Source: Succinimonas amylolytica DSM 2873
GTDB lineage: Bacteria; Pseudomonadota; Gammaproteobacteria; Enterobacterales; Succinivibrionaceae
DNA: 41,565 nucleotides
Assembly (NCBI RefSeq): GCF_000378405.1
Contig: NZ_KB899636.1
Span: 1,902,930 to 1,944,494, forward strand
Direction: 5' to 3'
Positions 7,359-25,913 of the stretch are shown here, piece by piece. Within the stretch, counting starts at the first letter, position 1. Each line of letters opens with the position of its first letter. Both the position numbers and the translations under genes were made by a program. The notes below the pieces were generated by a model that was not told the origin of the DNA, did not search any database, and saw only the letters and a program-made list of their open reading frames with translations.

Positions 7359-9035
7359 TTATTTCAGAGTCTGCCGCACGGTCTCGTAAATCTCCCCGTT
7401 AAGACCATAAGGGTTAATGCCGCGCTTGGCTTTGGGCTTCTTATAATTCTTGTTTTTGGAAACAAGCTTATAGAGCTTCTTTCCGTCCCATTTTGAGGCG
7501 TCAGCCCCCTTGGACCAGCAGGCACAGGAGAGCTTTTCCATCTCCTCCTTGACCCCGGGATTGTTGTAGAAGGGGAGTCCGGAAAGGCCGACTATAGTCT
7601 TTTCCGGCCAGCGCTTCTGAGCCCATTCAATGATGGCGGTACGGCATTTTATAGGATCATCCTTCTTCCAGGATCCGGCGAAGGCTCTCCAGTATCCCAT
7701 GTAGTCAACACGCTGATGCAGCCAGCCGTAGATGCCATATCTTCTGCGGTACATGAGTATGCTGTAAATTATGAAGATAATGAACAGGATTCCGGCCACA
7801 ATTGCTGCAAACACCTTGTAGGCAGTTTTGGGATCGCGGGGGATGTAATCGCTGAAACTGAAGCCGTTGATATCATAGGTGGTTCCGAGAACGACAATGC
7901 TGTTGACCTTGCCGTCATTGGGGTTCTTCCATTCGATAACGCTCTGGTCTGCCACAAACTTGGTGTGGTTGCGCAGGGGAACGAACACCTGCTTGACAAC
8001 TCTGGTGGATTTGAGCTGCTTGTTGCGCATGAGCTGTTCCGTTTCGGTGGTAACATCCTCATAGTACTCAAAGTCCATCTCGTTGAAATCCGGTACCGGA
8101 ACCCGAGGCAGCTGGGAAAGGCTGTTGTTGGTGGCAATATAGGTAATGGTTCTGGTGATGGGGTCACCTACATGAATGTTTTCATCAACAGGATTCCACT
8201 TAACAGAAATGCTCAGATTGTCGGAGACAATGAGATTTTCCGGATTCGGTCCCACGGTGATGGTAACATCCTTGGCCTTCTGCATGAACTGGCTTTCCCC
8301 GTTCCCTGACAGAACATTGCCGCTGATAGAGGGGCCCTGAATGGTAATCTGGCCTTCCTTGGTAAATACCGCCTTGTATTCGCGGATGGTGGTCTTGTAG
8401 AACCGGTTTCCGGCGCTGGCCCGGCTGACGGTTCTCTCGGCAAACAGCTCAAAATGCACACCGGCTCCCTTAGGGGGAGTGTAGGTGGTGATTTTGACCT
8501 GCGGCAGATTGTCCACTTCTACGCGGTACATGGCCAGCTGGTTTTTTATGGGGTTCTGAGCCCTGAGCTGCGCTTTGATATAATTCTTGGCGCGAATGCC
8601 CTCAACCTGCTTTACCTTGAGGTCAAACTTGGGAGTGCTGAGATCCGAGGTATTGCCAACGGGCATGGGAGGGATCTTTATGAGACCGGCCCGGTTCGGC
8701 ACCAGCGGTATTACCCAGGTATGGGTGTACTCATTGGTGCTGGAAAACACCACGTTGCCGACTGTAAAGTCCTTATTAAGCACTGTGTAGTTGAGATCCC
8801 CGGCGGATATCGGCCGCGGAGTTGTCAAAGCGATATACAGCTTGAATCCGGTACCGTCGTGGAACAGCACGGTCTTGTCGGTACTGATTTTGAAGGAGCT
8901 TTTCGTCGGAGCTGCAGCCGGCGCTGCGCCCGTCTGGTCGGCATTTTCTGCCGCATGCACCGCATCCAAAGCTCCCAGTCCCGAGAGACCGAGCAGAGCA
9001 AGGAGCATTACAGAAAAAAACTTACTGACTACCAT
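7359..9035 (-). CDS. batD: BatD-like membrane protein
   Basis: BatD proteins are large periplasm-facing proteins encoded with the von Willebrand A proteins BatA and BatB; the set was first linked to aerotolerance. This 558-residue protein starts with a signal peptide (VSKFFSVMLLALLGLSGLGALDAVHA). A long beta-rich region follows from about residue 45 to 400, then one strong membrane helix near 405-428 (VFAAIVAGILFIIFIIYSIL) and a cytoplasmic tail of about 130 residues rich in Lys and Trp. The position as last gene, after batA and batB, supports the call. Its start overlaps the end of the batB/C gene by seven bases, which suggests translational coupling. The molecular role of the family is not established. 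Confidence 0.85.
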   Translation of the reverse strand: MVVSKFFSVMLLALLGLSGLGALDAVHAAENADQTGAAPAAAPTKSSFKISTDKTVLFHDGTGFKLYIALTTPRPISAGDLNYTVLNKDFTVGNVVFSSTNEYTHTWVIPLVPNRAGLIKIPPMPVGNTSDLSTPKFDLKVKQVEGIRAKNYIKAQLRAQNPIKNQLAMYRVEVDNLPQVKITTYTPPKGAGVHFELFAERTVSRASAGNRFYKTTIREYKAVFTKEGQITIQGPSISGNVLSGNGESQFMQKAKDVTITVGPNPENLIVSDNLSISVKWNPVDENIHVGDPITRTITYIATNNSLSQLPRVPVPDFNEMDFEYYEDVTTETEQLMRNKQLKSTRVVKQVFVPLRNHTKFVADQSVIEWKNPNDGKVNSIVVLGTTYDINGFSFSDYIPRDPKTAYKVFAAIVAGILFIIFIIYSILMYRRRYGIYGWLHQRVDYMGYWRAFAGSWKKDDPIKCRTAIIEWAQKRWPEKTIVGLSGLPFYNNPGVKEEMEKLSCACWSKGADASKWDGKKLYKLVSKNKNYKKPKAKRGINPYGLNGEIYETVRQTLK

Positions 9036-10729
9036 AGCTGTTCCAAATTACCTCTTGCTTGTTTCTTTTTCTGCTGAAGAATGAACCGTTTCTGTAACAG
9101 ACTGCCGCGTTCGCCCGGATCGATCATCACGGTGCTGGCTTCTGTGTTGACAGTATTCAGAGACTGAGCCGAGCTTTCGTCGATAACGCTTACCTGACGG
9201 CTTTTGCTGATCTCGTCCAGCTTCCTGAGATACTCGACAATAACGGTCTTGTTCATGCTGGCCTCGGAGTGATCCGGATTAAGCTCCAGAGCCTGTTCGT
9301 AAGCCAGAATCGCATCCTTGAGAGCTCCGGGGGTATTCATATGGGCAAAGCAGTTCCCGATATTGTATTTTGCTTCGGCATCGTTCCCAAGACTCTGGTA
9401 TTCCTGCAGGGCCTTGTCATAGCGCCCGATGCGGTACCAGGCATTGCCGCGCCACATATGATCCTTCAGATAGAACAGAGCCTTTTCATACTGGCGGTCC
9501 TTGTACAGGAGATAGCCGTACTCGTTAGGATGCTTCTCGCCTTCCTCCTCGGTCATTTCAGTGACGTCAGCCAGTGCCGGGGTCGGGGTGAGCAGAGTGG
9601 CGGTTCCCACCATGAAGGCAAACAGCAGCGCAAAGAAGTAGTTGCGAACAAATCCGAATACGGAAAGCAGGGAAACCAGCAGGAAGATGTAGCCGATATC
9701 CTTGTTCTGGTACTTGCTCTTGGCAGTCTGCTGATACTTCGGGTGTTCGTAGCTGTACATCTGTTCCAGGTGCGGAGCCTCATCGTTGAACTCGTAGTAG
9801 ATCTTGGCGCCGGAGCGCTTGGCAACCTCGTCAATGAGCTCGGTGTGCAGTCTTGCCATTACGGTTTCGCCGTTGCTGTCATGCATGAGCTCTCCTCTGA
9901 AGCGCACGGGCTTCCCGGTCGGGGTTCCGATGGCATAGATGTATACCGGATACTTGCAGCGCTGAATGAAATCCGATACCGCTATGAGCTCGTTTTCATC
10001 CTTGATGTCGTCGGTAACGAGCAGAATGTTGCCCGGGGTGTCCTGGCTGTTATTGAGAGCCTTCTGGGACTCCTGCTCGCGGTCAAGAACCTTTTCGGCC
10101 ATCTCGAGAGCCTGAAGAGGATCAGATCCGAGAGTGGGCATGATCTCCGGGCTCATTTCCTGCAGAGAAAAGAGCAGGGTCGAGGTGTCGTCGGTCAGAG
10201 GCGTTACCACATAGGTATTGCTGGTAAAGCCCATAATCGATATCCGGCGGTGCTGCTTCGAAGCATTCAGAAGCTCGATCAGACTGAAACGGGCTCTCTG
10301 GAAGCGGCTGGGCTTAAGATCTGCCGCCATCATTGACGGAGAGGAATCAATAAGCCACACCCAGTTTTCGTCGGTCTGGAAGAGCTCGCTTTTCTGTTTA
10401 ATAGCAGGACCGGACAGGGCGATCACTGCGGAAATATACGGAATGAGAAGCCAGCCGTATTTCTTCCAGAGCTTGGGCTTGGCGATCAGATCCTTTCTTT
10501 CCTGTTCGGTAATTTTTTGAACTCCGGGACGGGCATCTTCAACTTCGTCCTCAGATTCTGCATCAGCCTCATTGAGCTGGACGCGTTTCTTGGGAATAAG
10601 GAAATTAATGATGTCTTCCTTTATGAAGCTCTGCAGCTTGTAATTCTTGGCAAAATCTACATAGATGAATATCAGCGGCAGGAGCAGGGCGCCCAGCATT
10701 ACCGGACGCAGCAAAGTAAAATCAACCAT
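9029..10729 (-). CDS. batB: BatB-BatC fusion (vWA plus TPR membrane protein)
   Basis: This 566-residue protein joins a BatB-type von Willebrand A domain to a BatC-type TPR tail. A membrane helix near 8-25 and another near 92-110 precede the vWA domain. The metal-ion motif is DSSPS (Asp128, Ser130, Ser132) and is intact. One or two helices near 345-390 follow, then TPR units from about 400 to 490, with the conserved FYLKDHMWRGNAWYRIGRYD and AILAYEQALELNPDHSEA segments. In many bacteria batB and batC are separate genes. The start has a strong AAGGAG. It overlaps batA by eight bases and batD by seven. It probably forms a membrane complex with BatA that the MoxR ATPase remodels (inference from family). 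Confidence 0.88.
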   Translation of the reverse strand: MVDFTLLRPVMLGALLLPLIFIYVDFAKNYKLQSFIKEDIINFLIPKKRVQLNEADAESEDEVEDARPGVQKITEQERKDLIAKPKLWKKYGWLLIPYISAVIALSGPAIKQKSELFQTDENWVWLIDSSPSMMAADLKPSRFQRARFSLIELLNASKQHRRISIMGFTSNTYVVTPLTDDTSTLLFSLQEMSPEIMPTLGSDPLQALEMAEKVLDREQESQKALNNSQDTPGNILLVTDDIKDENELIAVSDFIQRCKYPVYIYAIGTPTGKPVRFRGELMHDSNGETVMARLHTELIDEVAKRSGAKIYYEFNDEAPHLEQMYSYEHPKYQQTAKSKYQNKDIGYIFLLVSLLSVFGFVRNYFFALLFAFMVGTATLLTPTPALADVTEMTEEEGEKHPNEYGYLLYKDRQYEKALFYLKDHMWRGNAWYRIGRYDKALQEYQSLGNDAEAKYNIGNCFAHMNTPGALKDAILAYEQALELNPDHSEASMNKTVIVEYLRKLDEISKSRQVSVIDESSAQSLNTVNTEASTVMIDPGERGSLLQKRFILQQKKKQARGNLEQLW

Positions 10730-11708
10730 TGATTCTCCTTACTTGTATAGCTGTTGCCAAAGCCAGAATGAGGGAAATAATTAAAGGATAAAAATACAGC
10801 TCCCTTTCAGGCTGGAACGACTCGGCATCCGATTCTGTGGCTTCCAGGAAGTTGATCTCCTGATAGCGGCCGTGAAGGGATCTGCTGTCCCGGGCTCTGT
10901 AATAGGCTCCGTGAGTCGTTTCCGCAATTTTCTTGAGAGTTTCCTCGTCAAGCTCCGCGCTGGTATCATGGCTGTCAAGCCCCCGGTCGTCGGCAGAGAA
11001 AACGCCGCCGCCAAAACCGATGGTGTAAATCTTCATATCCTTGTCGCGGGCGATGGAGGCCGCTTCCAAAGGCTGAATGCCTTCAGCGGTGTTGCGTCCG
11101 TCGGAGAGAAGAATCATGATCTTCTGATTGGTGCCGGCCTCCTCAAAGCGTTCCACGGCAAGATTAATGGCATCGCCGATATTGGTCAGCTGTCCGGCCA
11201 TGCTGGCATCAATTTCGTCCACCAGCTCTAAAAGAGATTTTTTATCGAAGGTCAGAGGTGACAGCACGTAGGCATGATCCGCAAACAGGATGACTCCCAT
11301 ACGGTCATTGAATTTGCCGTCCCGGTTTTCAATAAATTCCTTGAGCTGCTTCTTCACTACCTGAAAGCGCGAAATCGGCTTGTTGCTGGCATCATACATG
11401 TCCTGAATTTCCATGGAGTCGGAAATATCAACGGCCAGCATGATGTCACGGTGCGGCCGGTTGATGACTATCATGGTGTCAAGGTAATAGGGGCGCATTA
11501 TTGCCAGTATCAGAAAAAACCAGGCAGCCATGCCCAGCCCGAACAGGAAATAAACCTTGTTCTTGGGTTCATGCGGCAGATAATGCGGCAGCGAGGTAAT
11601 GTAGATAAACTCGTTTTTCTTGCTCTTGCCCGGAAGAACTCTGATGATCAGGGGAAGAAAAACCAGAAGGATCATCCAGAACCAATGGAATCCTACCTGA
11701 GTACCCAT
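10722..11708 (-). CDS. batA: BatA-like von Willebrand A membrane protein
   Basis: This BatA-type protein has an N-terminal membrane helix (about residues 8-24), a second near 54-72, a cytoplasm- or periplasm-facing vWA domain, and a final helix near the C-terminus (LYFYPLIISLILALATAIQV). The metal-ion-dependent adhesion motif DISDS (Asp94, Ser96, Ser98) is intact, and MILLSDGRNT supplies the conserved downstream Asp. The ATG at 11708 follows AAGGAG and gives 328 residues; the frame continues ten codons upstream, but that part lies inside the DUF4381 gene. The coding overlap with that gene is 16 bases. Partners are the BatB/C fusion and BatD encoded downstream. Confidence 0.9.
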   Translation of the reverse strand: MGTQVGFHWFWMILLVFLPLIIRVLPGKSKKNEFIYITSLPHYLPHEPKNKVYFLFGLGMAAWFFLILAIMRPYYLDTMIVINRPHRDIMLAVDISDSMEIQDMYDASNKPISRFQVVKKQLKEFIENRDGKFNDRMGVILFADHAYVLSPLTFDKKSLLELVDEIDASMAGQLTNIGDAINLAVERFEEAGTNQKIMILLSDGRNTAEGIQPLEAASIARDKDMKIYTIGFGGGVFSADDRGLDSHDTSAELDEETLKKIAETTHGAYYRARDSRSLHGRYQEINFLEATESDAESFQPERELYFYPLIISLILALATAIQVRRING

Positions 11709-12337
11709 AGTCTTCTCCTTAGGTTTGCAAAGAGCCATTTCTTACACTGAGAAACAAGCATTTTCTTTTCTTTATCGTTAATGCCGATGTTGTGATAATC
11801 GTAAATTACCTGATTCCAGGCGGTGGTAAAAAGCTCAAAGCTGGTACCGTTGCCGCCTTTGACATGGCTGTTATTGGCAGTGGACTGTTCGCGTCCGGAG
11901 GTTCTCGAGGCCTGATACAGGGTGGCTACCTTTTCAAACTCCGAATCACGGATCTGCTGCTCCATATACTTGCTGCCGGACTTGAAGGAGTTAAGAGCTC
12001 CGTTGGAGATTATGTCCTTCTGTACCGGTACGGAATCCGGACGATCCAGAAACTCAAGCCACTTTTCACCGCAAAGACCGGCAATGCGATCGCGAGGGTA
12101 CATAATAAGGGCAGTTTCCTTCAGCCAGTAGTTTATGAGAGGAACAAAGGCCTCGCTTTTTATGTCAATCTTGCGAAGGCGCAGATAAGCCGCAAAGAGC
12201 GGGAAGAGACGGTACAGCACATAAAAAATCATGCCGGCCACAACAATTCCCAGGATAACCCAAAGCCACCAGACGCTGTAGTCCGACGGAGGCACACCCT
12301 CGTGAATATCCCTCAGAAGTGAATAGTCAAATTCCAT
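11693..12337 (-). CDS. DUF4381 membrane protein of the Bat operon
   Basis: This 214-residue protein has one membrane helix near residues 24-45 (WWLWVILGIVVAGMIFYVLYRLF) and a cytoplasmic helical remainder. The N-terminal LLRDIHEGVPPSDYSVWWLW fits the DUF4381 family, which occurs between DUF58 and vWA genes in MoxR operons. Its start codon directly follows the stop of the DUF58 gene, with AGGTGAA as ribosome binding site inside that gene. Function is not known; its place suggests an anchor or assembly factor for the vWA proteins. Confidence 0.8.
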   Translation of the reverse strand: MEFDYSLLRDIHEGVPPSDYSVWWLWVILGIVVAGMIFYVLYRLFPLFAAYLRLRKIDIKSEAFVPLINYWLKETALIMYPRDRIAGLCGEKWLEFLDRPDSVPVQKDIISNGALNSFKSGSKYMEQQIRDSEFEKVATLYQASRTSGREQSTANNSHVKGGNGTSFELFTTAWNQVIYDYHNIGINDKEKKMLVSQCKKWLFANLRRRLWVLR

Positions 12338-13252
12338 TTACTTCACCTCGTTTTCGCTGTCGCTAGTGTCCTGCTCTTCTCTCTTTCCCAGCAGCGGGTC
12401 TGAAACATCTATGCAAATGTTTTTCTGAGAAGCTTCGGTAAGCATGCGGTTAATATTGTGTATGCGGTGGACTCCGATACGCCGGTAGTTGTCAACAAAA
12501 TCCTTGTTGAGAGAGCTGATGAAGCCCTGATTGTTTCCGGTGTTGATGCCCACGGTACCCTTGCCGTCAATTTCCATTTCCAGCTTGTCATATATCTGAT
12601 AGGTTCTCACAATGTGAGACTTGTTGAGTCTTCTCAGATACAGCCAGGCATTGTCGTTCAGACGGTAGAAGTCGCTGATTATGTGAAAGACGCTTCCCGG
12701 GCGGGCGTGGTTTACAAAAATTTCCAGTCCGTTGCTTATGGAGTAATCAAAATTCTGGCGTCTCAGCCCGATTTGGTATGCTTCGTATACCTTGCGAATC
12801 CAGGCTAGCATGTCGCCGCGCATTCCGCCAGGCTTGTGTCGTATCGGAGTGTCACCGAGAATTATCATCCCGCCAACCTTGTCCTTCATGTCAAAAGCCT
12901 GCCAGGCGCAGGATGCTGCGATCAGCGATCCGAAGCGAGCCTTCAGCTGTCCCTGAGATCCGAAATACATGGCCGGATCCAGATCCAGAATAATGTATAC
13001 GTTACGATCGCGCTCTTCTCTGAAGAGCTTGGTAAAGGTTTTTCCGGTGCGGGCAGTTATTCTCCAGTCTATGGTTCTGATATCGTCGCCCGGCTGATAG
13101 GAACGAACCTCAGAGAATTCCATTCCTCTGCCGCGGCTGTTTGCTCTCAGGAGACCATAGCGCTGACTCGCAACCATGATGTTGGGTAATAGCTGTGACA
13201 AAGGAGGAACCAGCATCAGTTCCTCAAATTTAAGCTCAATCCCGTTTGGCAT
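12338..13252 (-). CDS. DUF58 protein of the MoxR/Bat operon
   Basis: This 304-residue soluble protein has the DUF58 signature GMEFSEVRSYQPGDDIRTID followed by WRITARTGKTFTKLFREE (about residues 43-80). The second half looks like a vWA-type fold without a full metal motif (VYIILDLDPAMYF reads DLDPA where vWA has DxSxS). DUF58 proteins are regularly encoded directly after moxR and are thought to be partners of the ATPase. The start at 13252 has AAGGA at a good distance. A 102-base spacer with a hairpin separates it from moxR. Confidence 0.88.
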   Translation of the reverse strand: MPNGIELKFEELMLVPPLSQLLPNIMVASQRYGLLRANSRGRGMEFSEVRSYQPGDDIRTIDWRITARTGKTFTKLFREERDRNVYIILDLDPAMYFGSQGQLKARFGSLIAASCAWQAFDMKDKVGGMIILGDTPIRHKPGGMRGDMLAWIRKVYEAYQIGLRRQNFDYSISNGLEIFVNHARPGSVFHIISDFYRLNDNAWLYLRRLNKSHIVRTYQIYDKLEMEIDGKGTVGINTGNNQGFISSLNKDFVDNYRRIGVHRIHNINRMLTEASQKNICIDVSDPLLGKREEQDTSDSENEVK

Positions 13253-13312
13253 TGTTTAATCCTTCTGGTGCATAACGGTTTGTCACGAAAAATGCTGTTT
13301 GATACAAAGAGA

Positions 13313-13332
13313 AGCAGAGTGTTGCCTCTGCT
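13313..13332 (-). other. Hairpin between moxR and the DUF58 gene
   Basis: AGCAGAG and CTCTGCT form a perfect 7-base stem with a six-base loop, and on the minus strand it is followed by TCTCTTTG. It could reduce read-through from moxR into the rest of the operon, or protect the mRNA end. The T run is too poor for a confident terminator. Confidence 0.35.
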
Positions 13333-13354
13333 CCTCTGGTCTTTATACCGATCC

Positions 13355-14314
13355 TCAGGCTACCACTACCTTCTTGGTAAGGAGCTCGATGACTCGGTTG
13401 GCATCCACGCGGTCAGCTTCCGCTTCCATTGTCAGGAACATACGATGTCTGAATACCGGATAGACGCAGTACTGAATATCTTCAGGTGCTACATAGCTCC
13501 GGCTGTCAAGCCAGGCGTTAACCCGGGCACAGTTAGCCAATGCCATGGTGGCACGAGGAGATACACCGCAGGCAATCCATCTGGCCAGATCAGTGGAATC
13601 GTAGCTGTACGGACGACGGGTAGCCATAGTCAGATTGATGATGTAGCTTTCCAGAATATCCGGCAGAGTTACCTCAAGAACCTCTCTTCTGGCCGCGAAC
13701 AGCTCGTTCTGGGTCAGTGAAGGCGGCTCCTCGCGGGCTGCGTTTCTGGATTCAAGATGGTTCAGTCTGAGAATCTGCAGCTCGGTACCCTGATCCGGAT
13801 AGTTAAGCTCCAGCTTAAGCATGAAACGGTCAAGCTGAGCTTCGGGGAGCGGGTAGGTGCCTTCCTGTTCCAGAGGGTTCTGGGTAGCCATTACCAAGAA
13901 CAGATCGGGAAGCCGGTAAGTCATCTTGCCGATGGTAATCTGTCTTTCAGCCATCGCTTCCAGAAGTGCCGACTGCACCTTTGCCGGTGAACGGTTGATT
14001 TCGTCCGCCAGGAGCAGGTGGTGGAACAGAGGACCAGGCTGGAATACGAAAGTACCATCCTGAGGCCGATATATATCTGTACCGGTAAGGTCGGCAGGCA
14101 GAAGATCCGGTGTGAACTGAATACGGTGAAAGCGACCTTCGATGCATTCGGCCAGGAGCTTGATGGCACGGGTCTTTGCCAGTCCGGGAGGTCCTTCTAC
14201 AAGAATGTGGCCATCAGCGAGCAGCGCTGTAAGCAGTCCGTCTACCAGCTCTGGCTGGCCGACGATGTTGCGGTTCATATACTCGCGAACCTTTAACACA
14301 GCTTCATTAGACAT
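13355..14314 (-). CDS. moxR: MoxR-family AAA+ ATPase
   Basis: MoxR ATPases act as chaperones that assemble or activate vWA-domain complexes. This 319-residue protein has Walker A GPPGLAKTR (about 41-49), Walker B LLLADEINRSP with Asp104 and Glu105, sensor 1 MATQNPLEQEGTYPLPEAQLDRF, and the lid region ending in YCVYPVFRHRM. The ATG at 14314 is preceded by AAGGA; a start further upstream has no ribosome binding site. It is the first gene of the operon, so the promoter should lie in 14315-14698. Downstream genes encode its presumed substrates BatA and BatB/C. Confidence 0.95.
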   Translation of the reverse strand: MSNEAVLKVREYMNRNIVGQPELVDGLLTALLADGHILVEGPPGLAKTRAIKLLAECIEGRFHRIQFTPDLLPADLTGTDIYRPQDGTFVFQPGPLFHHLLLADEINRSPAKVQSALLEAMAERQITIGKMTYRLPDLFLVMATQNPLEQEGTYPLPEAQLDRFMLKLELNYPDQGTELQILRLNHLESRNAAREEPPSLTQNELFAARREVLEVTLPDILESYIINLTMATRRPYSYDSTDLARWIACGVSPRATMALANCARVNAWLDSRSYVAPEDIQYCVYPVFRHRMFLTMEAEADRVDANRVIELLTKKVVVA

Positions 14315-14698
14315 GAAAATAAAATCCTTTTTTCTTATCTGCGGCATATACCGCCAGAATCAATATCGGGAATCCGTCCGGATTCGCCTCAATATAGCAG
14401 CCGCGGCATCTTCACCTCTGTTCTGCTTCCTGAAAATTACTCGCCTTAACAGGAAAACGGCAGGGGGCAGACTGAAAAGTCCGTCGGTGCTCAGATCTGT
14501 TTTAAGATAATGGAAAAATTGCGAGTCTGTTAATTTTTTCGCTCAGCAGGCTTTCAAAATTGGTCTTGTATCACTTTTTAGGACTTTTTGATACTCTGCC
14601 GGCAGGGAAGCTGGTGTATTTTTGTACAGGGCGATTTTTTTCGGCTGAACCGGCTGAAAAGGATTCTTTTGTTGTGATTTTCAGGGGGGACTGTACAG
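14315..14698. other. Divergent intergenic region between moxR and sixA
   Basis: These 384 bases should hold the promoters of both moxR and sixA. No hexamer pair was convincing, and no gene or RNA is seen. Confidence 0.4.
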
Positions 14699-16993: not shown

Positions 16994-18096
16994 TGGCCGG
17001 AAATACTTTTGGAGAGCTGTTCCGGGTTACCACCTGCGGTGAAAGTCATGGCTATGGTCTGATGGCTATTGTTGACGGATGCCCTCCGGGAATGGAACTC
17101 TCCGAGGAGGATATTCAGCCGGATCTTGACAGAAGACGTCCGGGTACCAGTAAGTTTACTACCATGAGAAACGAGCCGGATACAGTAAAGATCGTTTCCG
17201 GCGTGTTTGAGGGAAAAACCACGGGCACCCCTATCGGTCTTCTGATTACAAATGTTGACCAGAAATCCAAGGACTATGCCGATATCGCCAGAACTTTCAG
17301 ACCCGGTCATGCTGACTATACCTACATGCAGAAGTACGGGATCCGGGACTATCGTGGCGGCGGGCGGTCATCCGCTCGTGAGACCGCCATGAGAGTGGCT
17401 GCCGGAGCTATTGCGAAAAAGTATCTGAGCTCCAAGAGGATCTCTATCAGGGGATATGTCCGGCAGGTCGGTCCGATTTCCTGTTCGCGGGTAGTGCCGG
17501 GAGACCGGCAGCTTAATGAGTTTTTCCTGTGTGATAATGCCATGGCAGATCAGGTCAGGGAATATCTGGATGGGATTCTCAAGACCCGGGATTCCTGCGG
17601 GGCTCTGGTGGAGGTAACAGCCTCCAATGTTCCCCCGGGACTGGGTGAACCGGTTTTCGGCCGTCTTGATGCCGATATCGCTGCGGCTATGATGGGGATC
17701 AACGCGGTTAAGGCTGTTGAGATTGGAGACGGTTTTGCGGCTGCTGCTTCCCGGGGAACAATGTTCCGCGACGAAATGACTCCTGACGGATTTCTTTCTA
17801 ATCATGCCGGAGGCATTCTGGGCGGTATCAGTTCCGGGCAGGATATTGTGGTCAGAATGGCTCTGAAGCCGACCTCCAGTATCCTGACTCCCGGACGTAC
17901 CGTTGATGTTGACGGTAAAGCCACGGAGATTGTCACCAAGGGGCGGCATGATCCCTGCGTGGGGATTCGTGCAGTGCCTGTGGCCGAGGCTATGCTGGCG
18001 CTGGTGCTGATGGATCACCTGATGCGTAACCGGGCACAGAATGCCGAGGTTACCTGCAGTACGCCGGTAATTCCGGGGAACTCGTCCGCTTACTAG
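16993..18096 (+). CDS. aroC: Chorismate synthase
   Basis: AroC makes chorismate from EPSP with reduced FMN, the last shikimate step. This 367-residue protein starts [18 protein letters not shown] with the first signature, then [30 protein letters not shown] and [11 protein letters not shown], and later [12 protein letters not shown] and KGRHDPC. All conserved active-site blocks are in place and the length is standard. A strong AAGGAGG lies within the end of prmB and the two genes overlap by one base. A terminator follows 23 bases after the stop. Confidence 0.98.
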
Positions 18097-18119
18097 TAAA
18101 ATCAAATACTGCTTTCAGA

Positions 18120-18156
18120 AACGTCATGACTCTATGCGGGTTATGGCGTTTTTTTT
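18120..18156 (+). terminator. Rho-independent terminator of prmB-aroC
   Basis: AACGTCAT pairs with ATGGCGTT, and GACTC with GGGTT inside it (a few G-T pairs), followed by eight T. The stem is long and close to the aroC stop. Confidence 0.85.
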
Positions 18157-18771
18157 ATGTCTGCAGATTCGGCAATTTCCAGGTGCTAAGTTTTTCTTTG
18201 GTGGCGGAGTGTAAAAAATGATGGGCCGGGGGCCTCCTAAAGGCACTTCCGGGGTGGTGACCGAAACCGCTTTAAAAAACGGAAAACCTTGGGCAGGCTA
18301 ATGTCCTGTGAAGGGGGCAATGTTGATGATAGGGTAATTGAAATCATATGACGGAGACTGTTTATATTATTGGTTATGGACCTGTTCCTTAGTATCCGGA
18401 TTTTTTTTGTTGTTGTTTGTTTGTTTCGTAATAATACTGCTGTTGCTGAATTGATATTGTGTATGGTGGTGATATGTCAATAAATAAAAGACATCTTCGA
18501 TCTGTTTTACAGGGGGAAAATTATTATGCGGTGGTTGTTCTGCTGTGATTTATGATAATACTTGCTTATTAAAATGTTGTAATGGTCTGAGAATGTGATT
18601 TTATTTTATTTTTTTTTTTTTAATATTTTTTATTTTTGACTATTGCTGCTTTATTTGTTTTATTAATTTTATAGCATATATCGCTCTATTATAATCTGCT
18701 GGGCCTGGTCTGTTTCTAATTTGTAGAATGTTATAGTGATTTATCCTTGTGGAAGGGGTTTATTGTTATTT

Positions 18772-18800
18772 TGTTATTGTTATTGTTATTGTTATTGTTA
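18772..18800 (+). repeat. TTATTG microsatellite
   Basis: Nearly five tandem copies of a TTATTG hexamer run from 18772 to 18800, with an imperfect extension back to about 18761. Such repeats vary in copy number by slippage. It is not in a gene; the next supported start is more than 1.3 kb away. Confidence 0.8.
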
Positions 18801-18836
18801 TGAATGCTATACGTTGCTTGATTAGTGTTTTTGTAA

Positions 18837-18859
18837 TGGCAATTTCTGGTGAATTGCCA
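18837..18859. repeat. Inverted repeat in the AT-rich region
   Basis: TGGCAATT (18837-18844) and AATTGCCA (18852-18859) form a perfect 8-base inverted repeat with a seven-base loop. It lies just after the microsatellite. It has no T run, so it is not an obvious terminator. Function is unknown. Confidence 0.45.
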
Positions 18860-20137
18860 GAATTTAACAACTGTTATTGAAATAATGAGACCTGTTTATA
18901 TTAATATTATCTGTTATGATGGGCAGATTATCTGACAGTGTGGAGCTAGGGGTTATGCTCCTGGAAATTAATAACTAAAATCATAATTAATCATAGAAAT
19001 GTACAGAAAATTAATAAATTATTCAGGTTGCTGATATGTATATATATTATTAATAATCGCTATTGCGTATTGTTGTAAGGTGTTTTGATCAGCTATGTCA
19101 GTAAGTGTTAATCATAAGTATTAATATTAATAAGATGTTATGTATTAATACTGATTAATGCTTTGTTTAATTTGATTGAAATGCCGCTTTAGCAGGAATC
19201 TGAGTAAATTTTTTCTATGTGACGTATTTAAGATGTAATACACTCCCTTTACTGTAGTAAATGCAGTTTATCTTTTGTTTTTTATCCTTAAATATTATTA
19301 CGGATGTGTTGCACAAGGTGTAGCTATACTTATTTCTTGCGGAGATTATGTGCAATGTTGTTGTCTTTGTTTTTATAATGCTGTATCCCTGCCCTTTTCA
19401 ATAGTGGTGAAGCTGGTTGTTTATATGCTGTTTGCTATTTTAACAATGTTTTTATTCAGTGTTTTATCTTTGGTTAAGTGTGGATTTTATTAAAGGTGGT
19501 GAAAATATCGATTATTAATTTGTCTGGTCTCTTGAAAGAATATGAGATGTTTGCAGGAAAGCAGTAAAATTCTGGCAGATAGTATCTGATAATGACTTCT
19601 TTATATCATAATATGATAGCTATTTTAATTTTGCTGTATGAAATAATCAGGCTTTTTTGAGTCGGAATCTTTTTAGGATAATAATGCTGATTTCCGGCCG
19701 TTTTCTTAATCTGAGCCACATTATGATGTTTTGGCATATGCGGATATTTCAGAGAACTCATGTTTATCTCTCCCTTGGTATGGGAGTTGCTGCAGCCGGA
19801 ATCCTGGCGGAATACTTCAGAAAGGTGTGTTTATTTTTGCTTTTGTTGTTTTTTTGTTAACAGCTTTCGGCTATCATACGCGCGTGGCTTCGGTAAGAAG
19901 AGTTTTATTCCGACGGGATACGTTTTTAAGACCGGTGTTTCGTCTGCGGTATCCTGTTTTTTTTGTACGGATGCTATGGACTTTCTTGTAATTTATTGTC
20001 TTACTTCAAGTTTATGACGTCTCGCTAGGCGGCTATCATTACATAGCAATATATAATTATGCGAGCAACCAGGCGGCACTGCGGTGTTACCGGTTTCGTT
20101 TTTTATTTGAGGCTCTCCGTGAAGAGATTTGTCTAAA

Positions 20138-22741
20138 ATGCGTTTTTTTGAAAATCTGTTGTTTGTAGTACTGGCGCTGGCCATAACAGTAGTTGTTAAT
20201 CTGACGGGGTATGGTTTTACCGTTCCTGTTCATCTTTCTTTCGAGCTGCAGTCGAATACTGCTGCCGATGTTCGCATTTTCTACAAAAATGACAGTAGCG
20301 ACCGTTTTATCAGGGACTATTCTGTTTCCTTCACTGCCGAGCAGGGGGATGATTTCCACAGGTATGGGTTTGATCTGCCAAATCTGCGCTCAGTCTCGCA
20401 GCTGTCCCTCCTTTTTGATGATTCCGCCACCGGAAATGTCTGTATCCGGGCACTGACCATCCACGGCTACAATCAGGATTTTACCTATAATTTCATGCAG
20501 TCGGTGCTTAGCAATATTTCCATGTCCAGCAGCGACGAGCAGGGGGAAAGCGCCTGTTTTGTCTTTTACCAGAGAAGCACCGCCGAACCGGTTTTTTCTG
20601 ACCGGCCCCAGATTATCACCCAGCGCTTTGATGTTAACTCCATTGTTGACCCCTACAATCCCTGGCAGGGGCTTTTCTTTGTGGCGCTTTTCATAACCTT
20701 CAAGCTGGTTTATGGCCTCATAATGCGCATCGGCAGAAGGGTGCCGTGGCGCTACAGTCTTGTCGAGAACGTCAGAGCTCTCATGAATGCCGCCGGATGG
20801 ATTTTTGTTCTGGTGTACATTTTTGGAGAGGTTATTGATGCCTATGCTCTCCACAACAGAGTCCTCCTGATAGGGACTCTGACTGTTGGCCTCGGTTCCT
20901 TTTTCTATACTATTAGAGGTTTCTTTGTCCGGCATGCCCACCTGACCCTGACCGTTCTGGTTCTCGTTCTTCTGATGCTGGTGCGCTATGCAGTGTTCAA
21001 GAGCGAAGTTGGTACCATTTACCGTAATGAGTTCATGGGCTATATCCATATTGTCAAGCAGGAGCTCCCGTTTGACGTCGGAGCGGTGCTTCTCATTTCT
21101 TCCGCCTGTGTCATAAGAAGAAGGTTTGTCCGCAATCTGATCCTGGTCGCTGTGGCTCTGGGACTGGTGCTGATGTTCCTGGATTACGGTATTAATACCG
21201 GCAAGGATACGGATCGTCTTATTTTTACCTCTCTTGATTTTTCCAAGCTGAACTATCAGGATTTTGTTACCCAATCCATTCTGTTCTTCCAGACGGTGCA
21301 GGGCCTTCTGACAGCAGTTACGTTTATTGTGATTCTGATAACCCTGTCCCTGGCCTTCGGTAAGAATAAATCCGAAATGGTAATGTCTCCGGCCCGGATC
21401 TGGTCTTATCTTTTTATTGAGTGTCTGGCTGTCTGGGGGTATTTCGCTAATATCGGCACCAGCAGCGTTTATGATGACAAGTTCTACAATCTGGTGGAGG
21501 TCAATCGCGGCATTGAGAACCTTGATTTCTCAATGATTACCGCCTCCTCCAGCGAAATCAGCACTGTCAAGCAGGGCCTTAATTCCCATAAAAATGTTAT
21601 CGTTCTGGTGGTAAATTCCCTTTCCAGTTTTGGAAGCCGTCTCTACGGCGGGGAGAATCTGACCCCTAACATTGATGTAATTGCCAATCATAATATCTGG
21701 TTTAAGAACTACTATGCCCTGGGCTATGATGATGAAACTGCCAATTATACCTTCCTGACCGGGTATCCCTTCCTTCATAATGGCGTGGGGCTTGAAACAA
21801 AGGGGCTCTACGGAAGGTCGCTCCCCTATGTCATGAAGAATGCCGGCTATGCCACCATTATGGCCTATGCCTACAAGCCCAGTCCGGTCCAGAAGGTGCA
21901 GTACGATAATTCCGGTTTTGACTATCTGGTGGACTATCTGGATTCCCGCTTCCCGGAAACCGCTCCCCGTTACCGGTCAGACGCTCTTGATGACAAGGTG
22001 TTCCTGGGGGAGATGGCCAGGAAAGTGGAATACTGGATGCGCACCGGAGGCAAAAACTTCTTTGTACAGATCATTACCGGTTCTGGAATTGCGCCTTTTG
22101 CCGTTCCGGTAGAGAACCGTATTGATCCCAGTCAGAAGGAGTTCAACTTCGACAAGGTAATGCAGTTTACTGATGAGGCGGTGGCTCATTTTGTACAGGA
22201 TCTGACCCGTATAAACTACTTCAGAAACGGAATTCTGGTTATTACCGGGAATCACAGAGCCTCCATACCCATCAGCAAGAGGGAATTTGACACCTATGGC
22301 AGGCTTTCCGTTGCCAGAGTGCCCCTTATTATCATTGACAAGAATGTGAAGACTTTTGTTTCCACCAATGACATTTCCTCCGCTTCTCTGGGAGAAATCA
22401 TTCAGTATCTGACTCTTGATACGTATTCCGGAAGCTCCCTTCATGTGAATCCGTTTGTAGAAAAGGTTAATGAAACCATTGTCTATCAGGAACTCTCTCC
22501 GAGAAACGAAATTCTCATCAAGGAAGGCGATAATGTGGGAACCTTTGTTATTGCCGGAAACCAGTCCGAGATTACCGGTACCCTCAGAAACAAGGATGAG
22601 GTGTTTGGGAATATTCTGTCGCTCCTGCGCGATACGGACACTCTTATCAGCAATGTGGAGGAACTTCCTGAAGATCAGCGCTACCGGAAGTCCAGCGAAT
22701 GGTTTGAGTCAGCCGATCCCAAAAAACGGAACCTGAAATAG
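20138..22741 (+). CDS. LTA-synthase/sulfatase-like membrane protein, predicted inactive
   Basis: This 867-residue protein has a membrane helix (about 3-23), a beta-rich periplasmic domain (about 28-170), a bundle of about seven helices (178-440) and a C-terminal sulfatase-type domain (from about 485). The fold is that of LtaS-like phosphoglycerol transferases, seen in NVIVLVVNSLSSFGS, NLTPNIDVIA, NYYALGYDDETANYTFLTGYP and GILVITGNHRASI. Active members need a metal Glu in the first motif, a Thr nucleophile, an Asp-His pair and a further His. Here they read Asn (about 493), Asp (531-532), Asn-His (705-706) and Ile (651, in GSGIAPF). It is therefore probably a non-catalytic scaffold or sensor. 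The ATG at 20138 is preferred over a TTG three codons earlier. The next gene, 24 bases downstream, is a paralogue. Confidence 0.75.
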   Translation: MRFFENLLFVVLALAITVVVNLTGYGFTVPVHLSFELQSNTAADVRIFYKNDSSDRFIRDYSVSFTAEQGDDFHRYGFDLPNLRSVSQLSLLFDDSATGNVCIRALTIHGYNQDFTYNFMQSVLSNISMSSSDEQGESACFVFYQRSTAEPVFSDRPQIITQRFDVNSIVDPYNPWQGLFFVALFITFKLVYGLIMRIGRRVPWRYSLVENVRALMNAAGWIFVLVYIFGEVIDAYALHNRVLLIGTLTVGLGSFFYTIRGFFVRHAHLTLTVLVLVLLMLVRYAVFKSEVGTIYRNEFMGYIHIVKQELPFDVGAVLLISSACVIRRRFVRNLILVAVALGLVLMFLDYGINTGKDTDRLIFTSLDFSKLNYQDFVTQSILFFQTVQGLLTAVTFIVILITLSLAFGKNKSEMVMSPARIWSYLFIECLAVWGYFANIGTSSVYDDKFYNLVEVNRGIENLDFSMITASSSEISTVKQGLNSHKNVIVLVVNSLSSFGSRLYGGENLTPNIDVIANHNIWFKNYYALGYDDETANYTFLTGYPFLHNGVGLETKGLYGRSLPYVMKNAGYATIMAYAYKPSPVQKVQYDNSGFDYLVDYLDSRFPETAPRYRSDALDDKVFLGEMARKVEYWMRTGGKNFFVQIITGSGIAPFAVPVENRIDPSQKEFNFDKVMQFTDEAVAHFVQDLTRINYFRNGILVITGNHRASIPISKREFDTYGRLSVARVPLIIIDKNVKTFVSTNDISSASLGEIIQYLTLDTYSGSSLHVNPFVEKVNETIVYQELSPRNEILIKEGDNVGTFVIAGNQSEITGTLRNKDEVFGNILSLLRDTDTLISNVEELPEDQRYRKSSEWFESADPKKRNLK

Positions 22742-22765
22742 GCAGCCGTGGTCTGGTGGTGTTTC

Positions 22766-25132
22766 ATGACTGCGGAGAATAGCACGAATTCGCGTCCTGG
22801 CAGTTTCCTGCAATTTCTGAAGAGTTTTTTGCGGGGGGCCCTGCCGGATGCTTTTTTTCTGGCTGTGCTGGTCACGGCCGGCATGGTTCTTATGCTGCCC
22901 GGACTTCTCACCGAGGTCAGATTTTCCTGTGAAATCGCACCGGCCCTGCCTGGTGATTATGAGGTTACCGTGGGATATGCCACGCCCCTCAGCAGGAATT
23001 ATTTTGCTGAAAATACCCGCACTCTGAAGCTGAATTTTCCGGCCGGAGCATCCGGAACTCCCGATTTTCAGAAGATAGACCTGAGTTTTCAGAGCGTGCT
23101 TATCACAAACGTCCGCCTCAGCTTTTCGGAAACCACCAGCTTCAGAATTCGGAATCTCAGGCTTGAAGGATTCGAAAGCTTTCGGCTGGAGGATTATCCG
23201 GGACTGGATCTGGACTGCTCTCCGGACTGCATGCTCCAAAGACCGGAAAGCAGTCTGATTTACGTGCAGCCGCAGCGGTTTTCTTCCGAAATCATGAGCC
23301 TGAAGGCTCATAACGATCCTCTGACAGTTTTTACCGGATTAAACCGGCCGGTGCTGTACTTTCTGTCTTTTCTGGCTTCCTTTACGGTAATTGCGGCCCT
23401 GGCACAGTTTTTTCGGATGCATCTGATTCTCTGGTGCTGGGCGGCGCTGCCGGTTATTCTGGGGTATGCCCTGAATCTTGTGGTGGCCTTTTTTCCTGAT
23501 ATTTCCCGGGTTTACCGCAGCGAGTTTTCTCTGGGGGTGCTTAACGTTTTTCATCAGTATGGAGTTTGCTTCTTTATCCTGACAGGATGTCTGATTCTTT
23601 CTTCCTGGAAAAGGTTCTGGCAGATCCGCTGGCTGGGTATTTTGCTGTTTTTCCTGTTTTTTGCGGTTAATATCACCGATTTTTTTATCCTGCGGGAGCT
23701 TAATTCCAGGCTGACCATTGATGCCGTCCGGAATTTCGGCTGGGATTTTGCTCTGGGAGCGCCGCTGGTCCGGGATTTTGTATTGTCTCTGCCAGGAATT
23801 GCGGCGCTGTTTCTGCTTTTCTTTTATGTGCGTTTTGTCAGTATTTCATGTTACGAAAGCAGGAATCCGGAATATCCGGCGCTCTTTTCCGGCAGTCTGG
23901 TTCTCCTGGCTGTCGGGCTGCTTGCCTGGGGTGAGCCGAGTCCCGGAAGCACGGTGGATGACTACGATTTTGCCAATTTTTTCACGGTGAATTCCTCAAG
24001 ACATGAGGTGCGCTATTCTCCGGACAGCCCGTACAGAAACAGTATTCCCGGGGCAAAGGTGATCCCGGGGCTTAATTCCCGCAAGAACGTCATTCTCATT
24101 GATCTGGAATCCTTCAGCTCGTATCAGAGTATGTTTTTCGGTGGGTTCAGCAATAATATGCCGGAGCTGGATCGTCTGGCGAAAAGCAATGTCAGCTTCA
24201 CCAACTACTACTCCAACGGCTATGCCTCTGATGTGGCCAATTTTGCCATTCTGACCGGCTTTCCCTATATAAACGGCTGGCGCGGGGTAACGGACCCGGC
24301 ATATTTTGACCGGGCGCTTCCCCGGATTTTAAGTGCCAGCGGGTATCATACCTCCGTCATGTACTCCTCCCGAAATGTTTTTCATGCGGACGAGCTCCTC
24401 AGGCGGGCCGGCTTTGATGAATTCAGTGATGGCAGTGATCCGCATTATGCCATTTCCGAAAGACTGACCTTTAATTCTGTCCCGGATCGGGATCTTTTTG
24501 ATAATCTTTATCAGCGGGTTTCCCGCTGGAAGCCGGGTCAGGCGCCATTTTTCACCATGGTGCTGACAGCAACCACCCATGCGCCTTTTCTGATGCCTCT
24601 GACACATACCGCTTCCTACGAAGGGACTTTGCGGTACACGGATCGGGAGCTCATGGAGCTGGTCGCCAAGCTGCGTTCCGTCAGGTATTTTGATCACGGC
24701 ATCATGGTTATTGTGGCGGATCACCGGGCAATGCTTTCCCTGACCCTGGATGAGCAGATGCAATACGGAGAACGGGCTTTGGGCCGCGTTCCACTGGTGA
24801 TCATTGACCGGTCTCTGGGCAGCCGGGTTTTTCGAAACAGCGTGGGACATGATTCTCTGGGCTCCATTATCAGATATCTGATCCTTGACAGCTCCGAGGT
24901 TCAGGAATGGCAGTGCAACCCCTTTGCGGATCCTGACTGTCAGGAGGATGTTTTTTATCAGAAGAAGGGGCCGCGGGATGAAGTGCTGGTATTTCGCGGT
25001 AACGGCGATATTTCCCGGATAGCACTGGACGGTGATGCAACGGACATTGTCTCCGGGGCGCGGGAGAACCGGGAGCGGCTTTTGCGCGACGTATACTGGT
25101 TCCGCAATGATCCGGAATTCGGACAGAAATAA
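22766..25132 (+). CDS. LTA-synthase/sulfatase-like membrane protein
   Basis: This 788-residue paralogue of the preceding protein has the same layout: one membrane helix (about 29-47), a periplasmic beta-rich domain (about 50-190), six or so helices (195-390), then a sulfatase-type domain. Here most metal ligands are kept: Glu448 in LIDLESFSS, His605 in ATTHAPFLMP, and Asp652-His653 in VIVADHRAM. The nucleophile position, normally Thr, reads Ala-Ser (487-488, NGYASDVANF), so Ser may act instead. Relatives transfer phosphoglycerol or phosphoethanolamine from phospholipids to envelope glycans. The acceptor here is unknown. The ATG at 22766 is chosen over a GTG six codons upstream. It probably forms an operon, and perhaps a complex, with the upstream paralogue. 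Confidence 0.78.
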   Translation: MTAENSTNSRPGSFLQFLKSFLRGALPDAFFLAVLVTAGMVLMLPGLLTEVRFSCEIAPALPGDYEVTVGYATPLSRNYFAENTRTLKLNFPAGASGTPDFQKIDLSFQSVLITNVRLSFSETTSFRIRNLRLEGFESFRLEDYPGLDLDCSPDCMLQRPESSLIYVQPQRFSSEIMSLKAHNDPLTVFTGLNRPVLYFLSFLASFTVIAALAQFFRMHLILWCWAALPVILGYALNLVVAFFPDISRVYRSEFSLGVLNVFHQYGVCFFILTGCLILSSWKRFWQIRWLGILLFFLFFAVNITDFFILRELNSRLTIDAVRNFGWDFALGAPLVRDFVLSLPGIAALFLLFFYVRFVSISCYESRNPEYPALFSGSLVLLAVGLLAWGEPSPGSTVDDYDFANFFTVNSSRHEVRYSPDSPYRNSIPGAKVIPGLNSRKNVILIDLESFSSYQSMFFGGFSNNMPELDRLAKSNVSFTNYYSNGYASDVANFAILTGFPYINGWRGVTDPAYFDRALPRILSASGYHTSVMYSSRNVFHADELLRRAGFDEFSDGSDPHYAISERLTFNSVPDRDLFDNLYQRVSRWKPGQAPFFTMVLTATTHAPFLMPLTHTASYEGTLRYTDRELMELVAKLRSVRYFDHGIMVIVADHRAMLSLTLDEQMQYGERALGRVPLVIIDRSLGSRVFRNSVGHDSLGSIIRYLILDSSEVQEWQCNPFADPDCQEDVFYQKKGPRDEVLVFRGNGDISRIALDGDATDIVSGARENRERLLRDVYWFRNDPEFGQK

Positions 25133-25145
25133 GGGCGGAATTAAG

Positions 25146-25182
25146 AAGGGCCCTTTTTTTCCGTTTTTTCCGGAGGGGCCCG
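25146..25182. terminator. Probable convergent terminator
   Basis: GGGCCC (25148-25153) pairs with GGGCCC (25176-25181). TCCG and CGGA pair inside, and T-rich sequence lies within and after the stem. It sits between two converging genes and could serve both. Confidence 0.5.
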
Positions 25183-25184
25183 TT

Positions 25185-25913
25185 TTAAAACAGTCCGCCG
25201 TTTTCCGGAGAAAAGATCCGGAATCTGGCGTCGAAATCAATGCAGATGTTTTCCGCCAGCATTTCCTTTCCGGGCAGGTCGGAATTCATAATAAAGTTCC
25301 GGGATTCCGCTTCTGAGACTCCTCTGGTAATGATATCAGCGTCCGGAGCGTAGCTGATATGCCAGAGCTCCCCGGAGGTGCTGGAGGTGGGGGCGGCATA
25401 GGGCCGGAAGAATCCGAATTCCTGCATTCTGGTATCCAGCCACTGCGAAACCGGAGCCTGCGGTCCGGAGCTGTATTCCCGGTTGGTCAGCTCCAGAGCC
25501 CCTCCTTCAGGAATCAGATCCGGATCATATACGTCGATGTCCGTGCCGTAGTGATGCCGGGAAAGCCCGGGAACGGCACTGAATACCAGAATAGCCCGGA
25601 TTAGTTCTGCAGGGGATAGTTTTGTGATATCCAGCGGTTTTTCCTGGCGATCCAGTACCGGTCTTATGCCGGTCATTTTTTCGGTAAAGATGAGCTTCTG
25701 CCTTTCAAAATTCCTGAAGGACGAAGCGGCCCGGAGATTTATACCGTCCTTAAGGGCTTCCTTCTGCATGTTCCGGAAGGCCATGCCGGCTCCCGGAGTC
25801 AGTCTCACTGCCGGGGCTTCCGGCGACAAAGACAGATGGATTTCCGTGAGACCGTGGATGATGAGCGGAAGATCCTGGTAATGTGAAAATGACGGATACG
25901 GAAGATGCGGCAT
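25185..25913 (-). CDS. VanY-type D,D-carboxypeptidase (peptidase M15B)
   Basis: This 242-residue protein has the zinc-binding motifs of the VanY/M15 family. SRHHYGTDIDVYD carries His120 and Asp127 in the pattern S-x-H-x-x-G-x-x-x-D, and GELWHISYAP carries Glu182 and His185. Such enzymes remove the terminal D-Ala from peptidoglycan peptides. RAASSFRNFERQ (62-73) is the usual upstream block. No signal peptide or membrane anchor is visible at the N-terminus (MPHLPYPSFSHYQDLPLI), so the site of action is unclear. It may act on cytoplasmic or recycled peptides, or the true start may have been missed. It converges on the LTA-synthase-like genes. Confidence 0.85.
   Translation of the reverse strand: MPHLPYPSFSHYQDLPLIIHGLTEIHLSLSPEAPAVRLTPGAGMAFRNMQKEALKDGINLRAASSFRNFERQKLIFTEKMTGIRPVLDRQEKPLDITKLSPAELIRAILVFSAVPGLSRHHYGTDIDVYDPDLIPEGGALELTNREYSSGPQAPVSQWLDTRMQEFGFFRPYAAPTSSTSGELWHISYAPDADIITRGVSEAESRNFIMNSDLPGKEMLAENICIDFDARFRIFSPENGGLF

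Follow-up and report, generated by a model that had tools for sequence, protein, structure and literature searches.

Why should a rumen bacterium keep, just ahead of an apparently working membrane phosphotransferase, a second protein of the same superfamily that has lost four of its five catalytic residues? The question is raised by two neighbouring genes in a 41,565-nucleotide stretch of the 3.96 Mb genome of Succinimonas amylolytica DSM 2873 (Succinivibrionaceae), referred to here as the window, in which the original prediction had placed a tandem pair of lipoteichoic acid (LTA) synthase-like genes at 20138-25132. These coordinates are borne out: open reading frame (ORF) 1 (20138..22741, + strand) encodes 867 amino acids and ORF2 (22766..25132, + strand) encodes 788, with 24 bases in the window from the stop codon of the first to the start codon of the second. 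ORF1 starts at the ATG at 20138, with an alternative in-frame TTG at 20129, and the most likely start of ORF2 is the ATG at 22766, with an alternative in-frame GTG at 22748. We consider it probable that ORF1, which comprises a first transmembrane (TM) helix, a beta-rich segment, a TM bundle and a degenerate sulfatase/LtaS-fold domain, is a membrane pseudo-phosphotransferase kept for binding or regulation in the envelope, beside ORF2 as a predicted active membrane phosphotransferase or hydrolase with a serine nucleophile.

Both proteins match the Sulfatase family PF00884 above its gathering cut-off of 25 bits (67.1 bits for ORF1 and 92.3 bits for ORF2), and they are two of nine such matches in the genome. 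In an alignment of 27 relatives, five catalytic columns correspond to Glu255, Thr300, His416, Asp475 and His476 of LtaS, and across these columns ORF1 reads NDINH and ORF2 ESHDH. The metal-binding glutamate of ORF1 is replaced by Asn493 (21614..21616, by alignment), the nucleophile by Asp532 (21731..21733), the histidine matching LtaS His416 by Ile651 (22088..22090) and the metal Asp-His pair by Asn705-His706 (22250..22255), all on the + strand and the last three by alignment and profile together. Both acidic metal ligands are amides, only the last histidine is left of the residue set of a competent LtaS/OpgB-type enzyme (Glu, Ser/Thr, His, Asp-His), and the four losses that had been read from the sequence alone all stand. 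The claim that ORF2 keeps its metal ligands holds as well, these being Glu448 (24107..24109), His605 (24578..24580), which matches LtaS His416, and Asp652-His653 (24719..24724), again on the + strand and by alignment and profile. The N/D/I/N/H pattern is identical in all three close ORF1 proteins, and the E/S/H/D/H pattern in all three ORF2 orthologues.

An altered nucleophile in ORF2, with Ala-Ser standing where a threonine is expected, had also been proposed; we rejected it, as most alignments put Ser488 (24227..24229, + strand; alignment and profile) in the proper column. Ser488 is preferred as the nucleophile because the ungapped family column holds threonine in 11 intact paralogues (e.g., YNTAVATF in L074) and serine in the OpgB-like protein L079 of the same genome (VRSVRG). 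A profile built from 10 of the 15 intact rows matches this column to a threonine in both LTA synthase 2 (2w8d, within KTSD) and the LTA primase (4uop, within NTAD), a likeness to LtaS. In VP1736 (3lxq) the matching residue is a serine, and in the sulfatase 9bas it is the first serine of STPSR, the motif that usually holds the sulfatase nucleophile; the alignments to these solved structures run ungapped up to a shared TG. The corresponding profile of the ORF1 clade shows D, I and N in place of S, H and D when aligned to 3lxq, and sets its D on the Cys of the sulfatase 9bb9. Ser488 is thus the candidate favoured by most alignments, two LtaS alignments placing the nucleophile elsewhere, and with it ORF2 would have by alignment the competent residue set that ORF1 lacks. 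Serine is accepted as a nucleophile in the LtaS superfamily, according to the available part of PMC7576196.

The loci examined held 29 distinct family ORFs, of which 27 entered the alignment and the tree: both rows of L065 were dropped, this being the same contig as L063 (Ruminobacter sp. RUG12170), while the 399-amino-acid partial frame of L073 and the frame of L077, which runs off its contig, were kept. Weaker family matches of 470-780 amino acids (OpgB-like and others) lie outside the wide-locus set, with the exception of L079. In a maximum likelihood tree of the catalytic domain, calculated with the five active-site columns removed, ORF1, two close orthologues and five proteins from genera g7 and g11 form one clade (support 100/100, with and without a long outgroup), whose members read NDINH (three), ESANH (three), EAMNR (one) and DNSNH (one). 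The metal Asp and His are gone from all eight, the Asp having become Asn in every case, and both would have disappeared on or close to the basal branch of the clade, which spans three Succinivibrionaceae genera; since the glutamate and the nucleophile differ among the members, these were probably lost later and piecemeal. All eight clade members share, immediately behind the lost His, an insertion of some seven residues that shows the pattern [VI]E.R.[DN]P...E (22109..22141, + strand). In this form it is absent from the 19 other rows; L079 carries a shorter one at this place. The combination of a lost site and a new conserved loop next to it suggests that the domain has been re-used. The fewest intact-to-degenerate changes on a 26-row tree is two, one for the ORF1 clade and one for a separate group from genus g5; with long deep branches between the clades and some open forks, any sister group assigned to the ORF1 clade would be tentative.

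The g5 group is a second degenerate clade in its own right (L081:7986-10388, L082:7841-10213, L083:5523-7916 and L084:7851-10250), with serine for the metal glutamate, Leu, Val or Ser at the nucleophile, and H, D and H kept; its member in L081 adjoins an SRP54 (ffh-like) gene.

Selection on the two genes was compared through non-synonymous (dN) and synonymous (dS) divergence, by the Nei-Gojobori method throughout. Between the window and L063, dN/dS for the whole gene is 0.040/0.731 (0.055) in ORF1 and 0.102/0.752 (0.136) in ORF2, and for the catalytic part 0.024/0.777 (0.031) and 0.066/0.770 (0.086), respectively; YN00 concurs for the whole genes (0.042/0.638 and 0.100/0.799). Non-synonymous change is therefore about 2.5 times faster in ORF2 than in ORF1, and the identity of ORF1 to L063 (92.4%) lies beside that of the chorismate synthase frame (92.6%). 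Against Succinivibrionaceae bacterium UBA3769 (L064), dN is 0.085 for ORF1 and 0.240 for ORF2, with dS of 1.3 and 1.4 at synonymous sites that are near saturation, and the catalytic domains are 92% and 77% identical (31/389 versus 79/347 differences, counts derived from the rounded identities; Fisher p 2e-8). The dead domain of ORF1 is under stricter constraint than the apparently working ORF2. Together with the residues and their clade-wide loss, this strong purifying selection supports the view of ORF1 as a pseudoenzyme that the original prediction had taken, its loss of catalysis being what residues and selection jointly point to.

Two other explanations of the changed site have to be set against these values. 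The loss of four of the five catalytic residues would suit a duplicate decaying on its way to loss; this we rejected as scarcely credible, since it is contradicted by the low dN/dS, which is lowest in the dead domain, by open frames in all eight clade members, and by the distance from ORF2, with which ORF1 shares 27% identity from a separate clade and of which it is not a recent copy. Strong constraint, together with changed residues that are identical in the three close ORF1 proteins, would also fit a new enzyme that works through an altered site (Asp532, Asn493, Asn705 and His706). However, the same positions vary within the clade in a manner unlike a conserved new site, and in the window protein both acidic metal ligands are amides, so that we hold a new activity to be improbable.

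A search of 56 family genomes from 14 genera found an ORF1-clade protein at an E-value of 1e-190 or better in seven (two of genus g1, one of g7 and four of g11). ORF1 and ORF2 are adjacent in the window, in L063 and in L064, and both g1 genomes of the family search have the pair; orthologues of the two thus do occur together, a point for which the original prediction had proposed a check. Because ORF1 itself served as the query that retrieved L063 and L064, the three pairs do not amount to an unbiased census. L064, which has no match of its identity among the 56 family genomes, carries its pair in a different neighbourhood, flanked on one side by a gene whose product resembles, from its Pfam domains, the glutamate synthase small subunit. 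In a search of 369 genomes of the class, an ORF2-like match at 1e-22 was present in three and an ORF1-clade profile match at 1e-15 in four, the own genome included in each case; of the ORF2-like matches, those in G433 and G084 come from outside the family and their sites look intact, and weaker class-wide profile matches occur in G415 and G176.

Genus g10 has tandem subfamily pairs in which both members are intact (L071:375-6359 and L072:6668-12718), so that tandems of this kind also exist with no dead member. The g7 orthologue of ORF1 lies between two porin-like genes (L070:7295-8344 and 11877-12935), and in L066 the ORF1 orthologue is followed by two TerB-domain proteins (L066:13044-16184), with ORF pairs of similar size in L067 and L068.

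Several observations weigh against a retained pseudoenzyme beside an active, Ser-type ORF2, and should be read alongside the evidence given so far. Structure models of ORF1 and ORF2, made from six-row alignments, are unusable (mean predicted local distance difference test scores of 40.2 and 38.5). A single-sequence alignment of ORF2 with Staphylococcus aureus LtaS (2w5r) puts Ala487, not Ser488, on the nucleophile position; the 2w5r sequence as listed reads KASDS and the ORF2 alanine falls on its alanine, in an entry that we take to be the T300A mutant of LtaS; this alignment agrees with the original prediction. The alignment of the intact profile to 4uoo is shifted by two residues. Within the clade, the g11 members L066-L069 (four of eight) keep the metal glutamate and three of these keep the serine too, so that the loss of chemistry may be incomplete in the g11 proteins. 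Lastly, no ORF2 was found in the five g7 and g11 genomes that carry the pseudoenzyme (5/8 clade genomes), where the ORF2 query matched the ORF1 orthologue, an OpgB-like protein of 660-691 amino acids and, in two genomes, a weak match of 717-725 amino acids. As these assemblies are 92-97% complete, a gap in all five is unlikely. Pairing is therefore not obligatory for the pseudoenzyme to persist, and with five genomes lacking ORF2 any functional link between ORF1 and ORF2 is putative.

The same genomes bear on the possibility that the two proteins form an obligate heteromer, in which ORF1 would hold the acceptor or lipid, or switch ORF2 on, and ORF2 would do the chemistry. Their adjacency on the same strand, with the 24-base gap in the window and a conserved leader, in the three genomes in which an ORF2 orthologue was seen speaks for it, as does the fact that ORF2 orthologues were seen only beside ORF1 among the family, ORF1-query and class searches; the missing ORF2 in most clade genomes and its faster non-synonymous change speak against, and we regard such a complex as a possibility of the second rank. 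About as tentative is a wider version, a two-protein envelope phosphotransferase in which ORF1 would present the acceptor or lipid to ORF2, or gate it, with the clade acting alone or with an OpgB-like enzyme in the sister genera. Of the pseudoenzyme-enzyme system that had been proposed originally, the adjacency in three genomes stands; in five genomes the pseudoenzyme occurs with no ORF2 found. Because two genera keep ORF1 in the absence of ORF2, we favour for it an independent function in binding or regulation over an obligate complex.

For the favoured reading of ORF1 as a retained inner-membrane pseudo-phosphotransferase, we suggest the following course of events. The ancestor of ORF1 would have been an enzyme of the LtaS/OpgB fold that carried an additional beta-rich domain outside the cytoplasm; after the loss of its metal site, the degenerate domain, with a new loop near the old site, may have been re-used to bind or regulate an envelope lipid, glycan or protein. 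In the mechanism of LtaS, EptA and OpgB, no metal-bound covalent intermediate is expected without the glutamate, the nucleophile, the His and the Asp, and ORF1, which has none of these, should therefore be inactive. ORF2, with its intact metal site, would by the same mechanism react with a membrane lipid to give a phospho-Ser intermediate, and most likely moves the phosphorylated head group of that lipid to an extracytoplasmic acceptor. Where ORF1 lies just ahead of ORF2, in genus g1, the two are probably co-transcribed. The open-licence literature searched yielded no description of an enzyme-pseudoenzyme partnership in the LtaS/OpgB superfamily, nor of a Gram-negative envelope pseudoenzyme belonging to the LtaS/sulfatase superfamily. 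The superfamily and its regulatory, non-canonical members are known; what is new here is a separate clade with losses and an insertion of its own, and with an intact neighbour in one genus. Running from members that keep part of the old site to members that keep almost none, the clade offers a natural series for probing the function of a domain after catalysis.

The closest Gram-negative precedent raises a further alternative, namely that ORF1 stands in for YejM (PbgA/LapC), an LtaS-like regulator of lipopolysaccharide (LPS) synthesis. Like ORF1, YejM is a membrane-anchored protein of this superfamily with a non-canonical site (Asp268, Thr302, Asn403, Arg451 and His468; available part of PMC7576196) and a regulatory role (available parts of PMC7576196 and PMC13333357). 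Unlike a dead enzyme, YejM is reported as a magnesium-dependent phosphatase in the available part of PMC7576196, the role of its periplasmic domain is still open according to that of PMC13333357, and ORF1 differs from it in its additional beta domain and in which residues are lost. The Succinimonas genome encodes a separate full-length YejM-like protein (633 amino acids, 338.8 bits, profile positions 7-580), which also lacks a canonical Asp-His (TSIRG in the alignment), and ORF1 therefore need not fill the place of YejM. With the NCBIfam YejM/LapC model NF038282, ORF1 has no match at an E-value of 1 and ORF2 reaches 39.2 bits; all matches in the 56 family genomes, the 633-amino-acid protein included, fall below its cut-off of 825. 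We therefore rejected replacement of YejM by ORF1 as highly improbable. A third subfamily member in the same genome, with an intact site (L078:8589-11126, ETHDH), lies directly 5' of lptD in the same orientation, a hint of a tie between the subfamily and LPS export.

Among solved structures, VP1736 (3lxq) is the best relative of both ORF1 and ORF2 by sequence, with a sulfatase-fold domain and, as in ORF2, a serine at the nucleophile position. ORF2 is nevertheless far from phosphoglycerol transferase I/OpgB (NF009027; 35.1 bits versus a cut-off of 572), and both proteins differ from the OpgB/MdoB type in the extra beta segment after the first TM helix. A search for MdoG (PF04349) found no match in the own genome, which is 97.32% complete, while the E. 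coli control was positive, and for this reason osmoregulated glucans of the E. coli type are an unlikely acceptor for ORF2. With LtaS (2w5q, 2w8d, 4uoo and 4uop) the two proteins share the fold, and ORF2 the metal residues matching Glu255, Asp475 and His476; the LtaS equivalog NF053595, in contrast, gives 43.6 bits for ORF2 against a cut-off of 970 and no match for ORF1 at an E-value of 1. Further differences are serine for threonine in ORF2 and the absence of a catalytic site in ORF1. Trp354 and Arg356, substrate residues of LtaS according to the available part of PMC7576196, correspond to Phe and Ala in ORF2 in the profile alignment to 2w8d, as a matter of alignment only, and to a gap and Ala in the single-sequence alignment to 2w5r.

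A shared layout, with a beta-rich periplasmic domain between the first helix and the helical bundle, had been proposed for both proteins, and is confirmed at low confidence. Hydropathy and low-confidence models give the same order in both (first TM helix, beta-rich segment, TM bundle, catalytic domain), and strands are seen in the gap of both low-confidence models, at about residues 25-172 of ORF1 (20210..20653, + strand) and residues 44-182 of ORF2 (22895..23311, + strand). A simple hydropathy scan likewise separates a single first helix from the bundle by some 130-190 residues in full-length subfamily relatives; exceptions are L080, for which the scan called no first helix, L079, which is OpgB-like and lacks the gap, and the partial L073 and L077. 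Between the ORF1 clade and its intact relatives, the catalytic domains align with an hhalign probability of 100% (E 1.1e-63) and the TM bundles with 95.3% (E 2.2e-8), whereas the beta segments of ORF1 and ORF2 have no detectable sequence relation (1.6%), so that the shared layout is real and homology between the two beta domains would be conjecture. Profile searches of the PDB gave only weak antibody matches for the ORF1 segment (profile of seven of the eight clade members; E 0.16 or worse) and none at an E-value of 1 for that of ORF2.

On the chromosome, the pair is preceded by a chorismate synthase gene, beyond an AT-rich stretch of 2 kb, and followed on the opposite strand by a gene for a VanY-type carboxypeptidase, neither of which indicates a pathway. 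The stretch 5' of ORF1 (18097-20137) has 34% G+C in surroundings of about 50%, is without an ORF of 100 amino acids, and contains a short run of TTATTG-type repeats near 18760-18800. By blastn, its similarity to L063 is confined to two short patches and the final 158 bases. These last bases form a conserved upstream leader of ORF1 (19980..20137, + strand; 83% identity to L063 and 69% to L064 by blastn, and alignment), of which about 150 bases are kept in L064 in spite of the changed flanking genes. The leader includes a conserved 24-base element (19994-20017, + strand, by alignment), and a search of the own genome with up to three mismatches returned this one occurrence. An Rfam scan of 17900-25300 gave nothing at the gathering threshold, and promoter and terminator scans against shuffled sequence showed a modest excess at most (16 versus 12.5 and 16 versus 11.1). 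Elsewhere in the window, the minus strand at 7359-14347 carries an ordinary-looking Bat-type cluster with a MoxR-like ATPase, DUF58 and DUF4381 proteins, two VWA proteins and a BatD-like protein.

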